Source: Deltaproteobacteria bacterium 13_1_40CM_4_68_19
Lineage (GTDB): Bacteria; Myxococcota; Myxococcia; Myxococcales; 40CM-4-68-19
Assembly: GCA_001918155.1 (NCBI GenBank)
Contig: MNFJ01000015.1
Span: forward strand, 1 to 36,958
Length of the DNA stretch: 36,958 nucleotides
Direction of reading: 5' to 3'
A model generated the notes under the pieces. It was given only the letters and a program-made list of their open reading frames with translations. It was not told the origin of the DNA and did not search any database. The translations under genes were made by a program, and so were the position numbers. Every line of letters starts with the position of its first letter. Position 1 is the first letter of the stretch. This document shows positions 1,813-3,847 of this stretch, piece after piece.

Positions 1813-1836
1813 CGCCCGCTCGCCGAGAGGCGGGCG
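1813..1836 (+). terminator. hairpin directly after lon
   Basis: CGCCCGC (1813-1819) pairs with GCGGGCG (1830-1836) around a 10-nt loop, starting at the base after the lon stop codon. No T-tract follows, so it is either a weak intrinsic terminator or an mRNA 3'-end stabilising stem. Confidence 0.4.
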
Positions 1837-1853
1837 GGAGCAACTCGCTCGGA

Positions 1854-1865
1854 TATCGCTCGATA
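1854..1865. promoter_or_regulatory. short perfect dyad in the lon-amidohydrolase gap
   Basis: TATCG-CT-CGATA is a perfect 5+2+5 inverted repeat in an AT-richer patch between lon and the amidohydrolase gene. It has the size of a half-turn repressor site, but no regulator can be assigned to it and it could be chance. Confidence 0.2.
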
Positions 1866-1870
1866 ACGAT

Positions 1871-1996
1871 GCCGCCGGGCTGCATGGCCGGGCGCCGCCG
1901 CAGGCAGAAACCGCCGGCGATGTTGCGGCCGGTGGACCGGGTACAGGAAGCGCGGTTTCTGATGACGGCGTCGCCGCGGCCATGCAGCCCGTCGGC
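1871..1996. repeat. 126-nt imperfect palindrome (long hairpin)
   Basis: The outer arms 1871-1890 and 1977-1996 are reverse complements at 19 of 20 positions. Inner arms CAGAAACCGC (1905-1914) and GCGGTTTCTG (1952-1961) are perfect. The segments between inner and outer arms (1891-1904 and 1962-1976) also pair over GGCG.CGCCG, and a small CCGG-tgga-CCGG stem (1929-1940) sits in the apical loop. Together they form one nearly continuous stem of about 40 pairs. It lies in the 313-base gap between lon and the amidohydrolase gene and holds no convincing gene. It could be a structured 3' UTR or small RNA, or a decayed MITE-like element. No second copy was noticed in the window. Confidence 0.75.
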
Positions 1997-2115
1997 TACT
2001 AGCGCGCGTCTCTTCCCTCAGGCCCTCCCGCCGCGCTCCCAGCGGGCGGCGACTTGAAACGGGAGAGATTGCATGTAGTTGGAGCTGAAGGCAAAGAGCT
2101 ATGCTGCGCGGCGCC

Positions 2116-2120
2116 GGAGG
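2116..2120 (+). promoter_or_regulatory. ribosome binding site fixing the amidohydrolase start
   Basis: GGAGG lies 5 nt before the ATG at 2126. It favours that start over the in-frame TTG at 2054, which has no such site. A possible -10 box TATGCT lies at 2100-2105. Confidence 0.6.
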
Positions 2121-2125
2121 CCTTC

Positions 2126-3847
2126 ATGTCGCGTGATCAGCGCGTGGCGTGCTTCGCGATTCTCCTCGCATGCGGGTGCCGGAGTGCGCACCCTAACGGG
2201 CCGTCGCCGGACACGAGCCAGGGAGGGACGACCTTCGTTCGCGGAATGCTCGTGCGCGCCGACGGCAGCGTGGTCGACGACGCCGTGGTCGCGATCGAAG
2301 GAAGCCGGATCGCGCGCGTTGGGACGGCGCGTGAGATGCCGATTCCGTCGGGCGCGGCGGTGATCGGTGGGCCCGGGAAGTGGATCATCCCCGGGTTGAT
2401 CGATGCGCACGTGCACTTCTTCCAGTCGGGCGGCCTCTATACGCGGCCGGACGTGATCGATTTGACCTCTCGCGTACCGTACGCGGAAGAAACCCGGCGG
2501 GTGCGGGAGGCGCTGCCCGAGACGTTTCGTCGCTACCTTCGTGCCGGCGTGACGTCGGTGATCGATTTCGGCGGTCCGGAATGGAACTTCGAGATGCGAG
2601 ACCTCGCCACCCGCACCCCTTTCGCCCCGCGGGTCGCAACGGCGGGTCCGCTTCTCTCGTCGTTGGCTCGCCCTCAGCTCGACCTGGGCGACCCGCCCAT
2701 CCGGCAGGTGACCGAACCCGCGGCAGCCCGCGCCATGGTCCGCGCTCAAGCGCCGCGCAAGCCCGACTTCATCAAGCTCTGGTGGCCGCTGGGACCTGGC
2801 CACACCCCGCAGACGTGGCAGCCGGTTGCCGCTGCCGCAGTCGACGAAGCGCACGCGCTCGGGCTTCGCGTGGCAATCCATGCCACCGAGCTCGAGGTGG
2901 CCCGGCTGGCGCTGAGGATGGGAGCGGACGTGCTCGTGCACAGCGTCGTCGACGCGGAGGTCGATGACGAGTTCATCCGTCTCCTTCGTGAGGGGAACGT
3001 CGGGTACGTCACGACCCTGGCGGTGTTCGGCGGCTACCCCAGGGTCCTCTCGCACAAGGTGCAATTGATCGCGGCGGAGATGGAGCTCGCCGATCCGAAG
3101 GTGGTGGCCACGGTGCTGGAACCGTTCACGGTGCCGGAAAGCCGCTACCGCGGGCCGCCCGGTCCGGCGGCGCGCCGCAACGTCCGGCGTGTGTGGGACG
3201 GCGGCGGCCTGCTCGCCGCGGGCAGCGACGCCGGGAACATCGGGACCTTCCACGCGGCAGGGCTGCACCGGGAGCTCGAGGAGCTCGTCGCGGCTGGGCT
3301 TACGCCGGCCGAGGCCCTGACCGCGGCGACGGCGAATGCCGCGCGCGTGATGGGACGCGCGGACCTGGGCGAGATCGAGCCAGGGAAGCTCGCGGACATG
3401 CTCGTGCTCGGTGCGAGCCCTCTCGATGACATCCGCAACGCGCGCCGCATCGAATGGGTGGTGAAGGACGGCGTGCCTCGTCGCCCGGACGAGATCCTTC
3501 CGCGCACGGCCGAGGAGATCGTCCAGGCGCAGGTGAACGCGTACAACGCTCAGGACCTCGAGGCGTTCCTCTCCACCTACTCCGACGACGCCGTGATCGT
3601 GCGCGCCGGGACGGGAGAGACGCTCATGGCCGGCAAGCAATCCATGCGCGAGCGGTACGGAAGCATGTTCGCCCGGTTCCCGGCCAACCGGGTCCGGATC
3701 GCGGAGCGCAAGATCGAGGGAACGAACACCGTGGTCGACCACGAGATCGTCACCGGCCGCGGCCCCGAGCGGCCCGATCCCTGGGACGTGGGCTGGGTCC
3801 GATATGAGCTCGGCGACGGCCTCATCCGCAAGGTGGCGCTGCCTTGA
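2126..3847 (+). CDS. secreted amidohydrolase with C-terminal SnoaL-like domain
   Basis: Metal-dependent hydrolase of the amidohydrolase superfamily (imidazolonepropionase/prolidase-like branch), 573 residues; the substrate is unknown. The ATG at 2126 is chosen because GGAGG precedes it and because it gives a lipoprotein-type signal (ILLAC near residue 16), so the product is probably exported and lipid-anchored. Metal ligands are all visible: His95 and His97 in DAHVH, a candidate carbamylated Lys217 (FIKLWW), His252 (IHATE), His272 (LVHSV) and Asp368 (GSDAGN). Residues from about 463 to the end match the NTF2/SnoaL fold (QAQVNAYNAQDLEAFLSTYS), which usually binds a small hydrophobic ligand or dimerises. 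This fusion is unusual. The gene is convergent with the cyclase gene that follows and shares its terminator hairpin. Confidence 0.88.
   Translation: MSRDQRVACFAILLACGCRSAHPNGPSPDTSQGGTTFVRGMLVRADGSVVDDAVVAIEGSRIARVGTAREMPIPSGAAVIGGPGKWIIPGLIDAHVHFFQSGGLYTRPDVIDLTSRVPYAEETRRVREALPETFRRYLRAGVTSVIDFGGPEWNFEMRDLATRTPFAPRVATAGPLLSSLARPQLDLGDPPIRQVTEPAAARAMVRAQAPRKPDFIKLWWPLGPGHTPQTWQPVAAAAVDEAHALGLRVAIHATELEVARLALRMGADVLVHSVVDAEVDDEFIRLLREGNVGYVTTLAVFGGYPRVLSHKVQLIAAEMELADPKVVATVLEPFTVPESRYRGPPGPAARRNVRRVWDGGGLLAAGSDAGNIGTFHAAGLHRELEELVAAGLTPAEALTAATANAARVMGRADLGEIEPGKLADMLVLGASPLDDIRNARRIEWVVKDGVPRRPDEILPRTAEEIVQAQVNAYNAQDLEAFLSTYSDDAVIVRAGTGETLMAGKQSMRERYGSMFARFPANRVRIAERKIEGTNTVVDHEIVTGRGPERPDPWDVGWVRYELGDGLIRKVALP

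Follow-up and report, generated by a model that had tools for sequence, protein, structure and literature searches.

A palindromic intergenic unit of about 190 bp was found in two dispersed copies in the genome of Deltaproteobacteria bacterium 13_1_40CM_4_68_19, and it is, on balance, probably a lineage-specific, non-autonomous palindromic repeat of the MITE or REPIN type that arrived in short gaps 3′ of genes. The first copy lies near the start of the window, which is the whole stretch of DNA that was analysed (36,958 nt). An earlier note on the window had described a palindrome of 126 nt at 1871-1996 and had offered a structured small RNA, a 3′ UTR processing signal or a decayed non-autonomous mobile element as its nature. 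The palindrome was found to be present, whereas the description had omitted the unit of about 190 bp around the hairpin as well as the second copy. The mobile element was the best fit among the three guesses because two dispersed copies were found and because close relatives were found to contain short syntenic intervals without the element; the word "decayed" was not supported. We infer both the mobility and the function of the element.

The unit and its hairpin

The neighbourhoods of the two copies were aligned, and the repeated unit was found to span approximately window positions 1851-2041, with 20 bases before the stem and 45 bases after it. The parts of the unit, and one neighbouring hairpin, were as follows.

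1851..1870, + strand: 5′ flank of the unit, identical to copy 2 at 15 of 20 positions
1871..1914, + strand: left hairpin arm, 2 of 44 positions differing between the copies
1915..1951, + strand: apical part of 37 nt, 9 positions differing between the copies
1929-1940: small CCGG-NGGA-CCGG hairpin in the apical part, present in both copies
1952..1996, + strand: right hairpin arm, 4 of 45 positions differing between the copies
1997..2041, + strand: 3′ flank of the unit, homologous in copy 2, with 7 differences of which three are indels
1813..1838, + strand: short hairpin directly after the upstream stop, outside the element, paired by reading and also found in the relative G006

The outer arms (1871-1890 and 1977-1996) were found to be 95% paired (19/20), followed by the arm segments 1891-1914 and 1952-1975 with 79% pairing, and the inner segments (1905-1914 and 1952-1961) were paired at 10/10 positions by reading. 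The region of 147 nt was folded on the + strand into a single long stem with a minimum free energy of -93.8 kcal/mol (z -5.72) against a shuffled mean of -70.3 kcal/mol, and none of 200 shuffles was found to be as low. The fold of the same region on the - strand reached -91.6 (z -6.36), again with 0/200 shuffles as low, and copy 2 was folded likewise (-95.3, z -7.2). The palindrome is thus real by its arms, its single long stem and its z score, and the folding against shuffled controls that had been proposed for it was borne out.

The inverted repeats were sampled in 11,239 windows of 160 nt from 226 kb, comprising the window, six other stretches of the source genome and four stretches of two congeners. 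By self-reverse-complement alignment the two copies ranked first and second, with scores of 36 and 30, followed by a best unrelated score of 20. The energy alone was less distinctive: among 15,000 windows of 130 nt, the non-homologous stretch L151:346 reached -92.7, and in the sampled register copy 2 reached -93.5 and copy 1 reached -85.4. The arms, and not the folding energy, are the distinctive feature, because the genome contains another G+C-rich stretch with nearly as low a folding energy. The remaining strong folds from these stretches had no relation to the element; the apparent giant palindrome in L171 was found to be a run of N, and a match of 31 nt in L168 was found to sit inside a long open frame.

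The two copies compared

The source assembly (3.46 Mb in 196 contigs, 74.8% complete) was found to contain one further copy at G000:C139:8623-8765, which was 88% identical, followed by a unit-wide identity of 86% over 191 bases. Copy 1 is preceded by a gene that the earlier note had named lon (a putative assignment) and is followed by an amidohydrolase gene with a SnoaL-like end. The protein of this gene (window 2054-3847) joins an amidohydrolase to a SnoaL-like domain at its C-terminus. Copy 2 is preceded by a gene ending at L011:3978, itself located after an AAA-type ATPase gene, and is followed by a small opposite-strand gene and an M20 peptidase gene. The two loci were unrelated and the copied segment was found to be the unit alone, without the flanking genes.

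The alignment of the copies contained 27 differing columns out of 193, five of which were indels. The differences were concentrated outside the arms, with 6/89 in the arms and 21/102 in the loop and flanks (p 0.0067). The consensus structure contained 45 pairs, of which 43 were identical in the two copies and none was broken; one pair was altered on both sides (C-G to G-C) and another was changed from G-U to A-U, in a consensus derived from the same two sequences on which it was scored. When each copy's own fold was used instead, 4/51 pairs (p 0.0012) and 5/52 pairs (p 0.08) were found to be broken in the other copy. These counts give modest support to the suggestion that pairing has been favoured between the copies. 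The paired state was largely retained and the arms were better kept than the loop and flanks, contrary to the "decayed" state in the earlier note. The search that had been proposed there for further copies and compensatory changes gave one further copy and one compensatory pair, with none in other genomes. The refuting outcome set out in that note, neither copies nor covariation, did not arise.

The same counts bear on the reading of the unit as a chance or relic palindrome, copied once by ordinary segmental duplication and drifting without function or mobility. Template switching from one arm to the other can itself generate paired changes, so it could mimic the pair conservation observed here; the presence of two copies only and the G+C content of the unit (0.71), near the 0.70 of the window, also agree with such an origin. 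It is nevertheless considered unlikely, as the arms were conserved beyond the loop and flanks, the inverted repeats were the strongest in the 226 kb sampled and the duplication did not include any flanking gene.

A coding origin was tried and rejected: each copy has an open + strand frame starting with MAGRRR, but the changes from one copy to the other showed no excess at the third codon position. The translations of both open frames contained no Pfam family match, and the copy-2 translation gave no plasmid match. Outside the source genome, among 145 genomes, the copy-2 translation matched one weak arginine-rich place with 39% identity (E 7e-4). A retron reading was met by no RVT_1 match in the source genome (0/1; about 75% complete).

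The unit might be a small RNA or a 3′ UTR signal. A structured regulatory RNA whose gene has been duplicated, acting via its long duplex stem and recent in the lineage, would account for the conserved paired positions with their one compensatory change. It would also account for homology that continues past the stem on both sides, as expected of an RNA gene that includes a leader and a tail. However, no promoter-like site was found at the element when the sigma-70 consensus only, which may not suit this lineage, was looked for, and no T-tailed terminator was found on the element's strand. The Rfam matches were at chance level only (23.2 against a gathering score of 137 bits, and 22.6 against 90), and the element was found in none of the 6 congeners examined. 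With these observations the RNA gene is regarded as improbable, to about the same degree as the relic palindrome.

Relatives without the element

The closest relative examined, G006, was found to contain a lon-end protein with 98% identity and an M20 peptidase with 94% identity to those of the source genome. At the site of copy 2, the span between alignable genes was 29 bp in G006 versus 338 bp in the source genome, and, with slightly different alignment ends, 22 bp in G005 versus 361 bp. The short interval in these two congeners speaks for a gain in the source lineage. Next to lon, the interval that could not be aligned was 253 bp in the source genome versus 110 bp in G006, so that a gain is likely there as well, with borders that are not readable. 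The gain at the copy-2 site relative to G006 was about 309 bp, which is longer than the unit of 190 bp, and the empty-site alignments with G006 and G005 gave no exact borders and no readable target duplication. A segment of about 137 bp adjoining copy 2 (L011:4180-4316) was also missing from the relatives, and no second copy of it was found in the source genome.

Both copies lie on the same strand as the upstream gene, 59 nt (copy 1) and 28 nt (copy 2) past its stop codon by reading, in two cases only. This position on the coding-strand side would suit a transcription terminator or mRNA 3′-end element proper to the upstream genes. Such a role is very improbable, since G006 was found to contain the same upstream genes without the element, the stop upstream of copy 1 is already followed by the short hairpin common to G006, and the T tail is absent.

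The element was matched in 1 of the 145 genomes of the order, the source genome itself being the one counted (E 1e-5), and in 2 of the 195 genomes of the phylum, namely the source genome and G105. The RNA model R1 matched the source genome only (1/40 genomes). No copies were found in phages and plasmids, and no isolated arm was found in the source genome at E 0.001. The match in G105 covered the 5′ flank and left arm only (51 nt, 83%, E 7e-7) and runs antisense to a graspetide-like precursor gene of repetitive sequence; it is read as a G+C-rich chance match, though it is not fully explained. The precursor itself (L146:123-2576 of G105, a genome of the same order) contained 457 amino acids with many PSDNEDGGG-like repeats, matched Inhibitor_I10 and was found to adjoin a gene whose product has an MvdD pre-ATP-grasp domain; it resembles a multi-core graspetide precursor of very large size.

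Matches of 22-45 nt were found in 7/60 genomes (source excluded) and were taken as chance, the seven neighbourhoods having been folded without a comparable hairpin. The inner-stem pattern was found in 66 stretches of genome_contigs and 4 of viral_contigs, collections that may omit records of the source genome or very near ones; none contained the outer arms, and the best local alignment was 65% over 95 nt. The outer-arm pattern was found in 2 viral stretches with no homology. Many contigs of Gordonia sp. ABSL49_1 (e.g. L084, L085, L095) were observed to carry members of a dispersed family of repeats whose stems read CAGAAACCGC...GCGGTTTCTG; this family is unrelated to the element. A search of the open-licence literature, a scope that gives no proof of absence, found no description of such an element in myxobacteria.

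A candidate mover and the known repeat families

In the favoured reading of a non-autonomous mobile repeat, a trans-acting transposase or recombinase would have put the unit in place, recognising its hairpin in single-stranded or cruciform form. Where transcripts of the upstream gene run on across the unit, their RNA would contain a long duplex stem, which might protect the upstream message against 3′ exonucleases or serve as a substrate for RNase III; any influence on the neighbouring genes would come second to the spread of the element itself. The points against this reading are the copy number of just two (assembly 74.8% complete), the position of the inverted repeats, which are not at the ends of the unit, the lack of a readable target duplication, a copy-2 gain longer than the unit, a Y1 gene without matching repeats and the modest structure conservation under each copy's own fold.

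Genes for Y1 (IS200-like) transposases were found in 7/7 genomes of the genus, with 21, 20, 13 and 13 in four congeners, followed by 4 in G005, 3 in G006 and 1 in the source genome. Several of them (genomes G000-G006, loci L163-L174) were flanked by inverted repeats, and the flanks at L163 and L170 contained inverted repeats of 57 nt at 89% with self-complementary halves. A RAYT/TIRYT-type mover for the element is thinkable because of these genes and the repeats that flank several of them. The single Y1 gene of the source genome was found to have no flanking repeats matching the element (assembly 74.8% complete). That the unit is the founder of an undescribed palindromic mobile family of a single species, moved in trans by a RAYT/TIRYT-like Y1 transposase of the genus and caught at two copies, is a narrower proposal and a decidedly doubtful one.

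In the parts of PMC10969869 and PMC3733652 that concern them, MITEs (NEMIS, ERIC, RUP, QMITE2) are described as non-coding units of 70-300 bp, intergenic beside genes and with a strong single hairpin in the transcript. The same parts (PMC10969869, PMC3733652) give them inverted repeats of 15-30 bp at the ends, often with direct repeats around, and a typically AT-rich composition. The element resembles MITEs in its length of about 190 bp, its intergenic position next to genes, the lack of a third-codon-position excess, open frames without a family match and the strong single hairpin predicted for its transcript. Unlike MITEs, it contains homology that runs beyond the inverted repeats by about 20 bp on one side and about 45 bp on the other, and it is 71% G+C. 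No further match that might be an autonomous relative sharing its ends was found in the source assembly (74.8% complete), and the one Y1 locus lacks such ends.

REPs are described, in the relevant part of PMC3733652, as repeats of 20-40 bp with stems of 6-9 bp and a high copy number, and REPs or REPINs and TIRYTs as being moved by Y1 tyrosine transposases. The element is likewise palindromic intergenic DNA located 3′ of genes, in a genus where Y1 transposase genes are common. REPs carry a GTAG (or CGTC) tag at each palindrome foot; here the right stem foot of both copies reads GTAG on the - strand, and the left foot has no GTAG (by reading). Unlike REPs and REPINs, it contains arms of about 45 nt and was found as two whole copies with no single arms elsewhere. 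The RMX repeat of Myxococcus xanthus is a short, many-copy repeat of a probably related lineage. The element differs from it in having two copies, and no genome of the order other than the source genome was found to match the element.

The terminal inverted repeats of MITEs and the high copy number with singletons of REPs were both looked for and neither was found, so the element is filed with neither, while in outline it works like a MITE or a REPIN. It opens no new kind of system, and it adds to the small palindromic repeats of bacteria a sequence family with few copies and near relatives without it. The link between transposase and repeat could be tested in this genus, with its 1 to 21 Y1 genes per genome. 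Taken together with the known families, the element seems to be a small palindromic intergenic repeat of an ordinary kind, belonging to an undescribed family.
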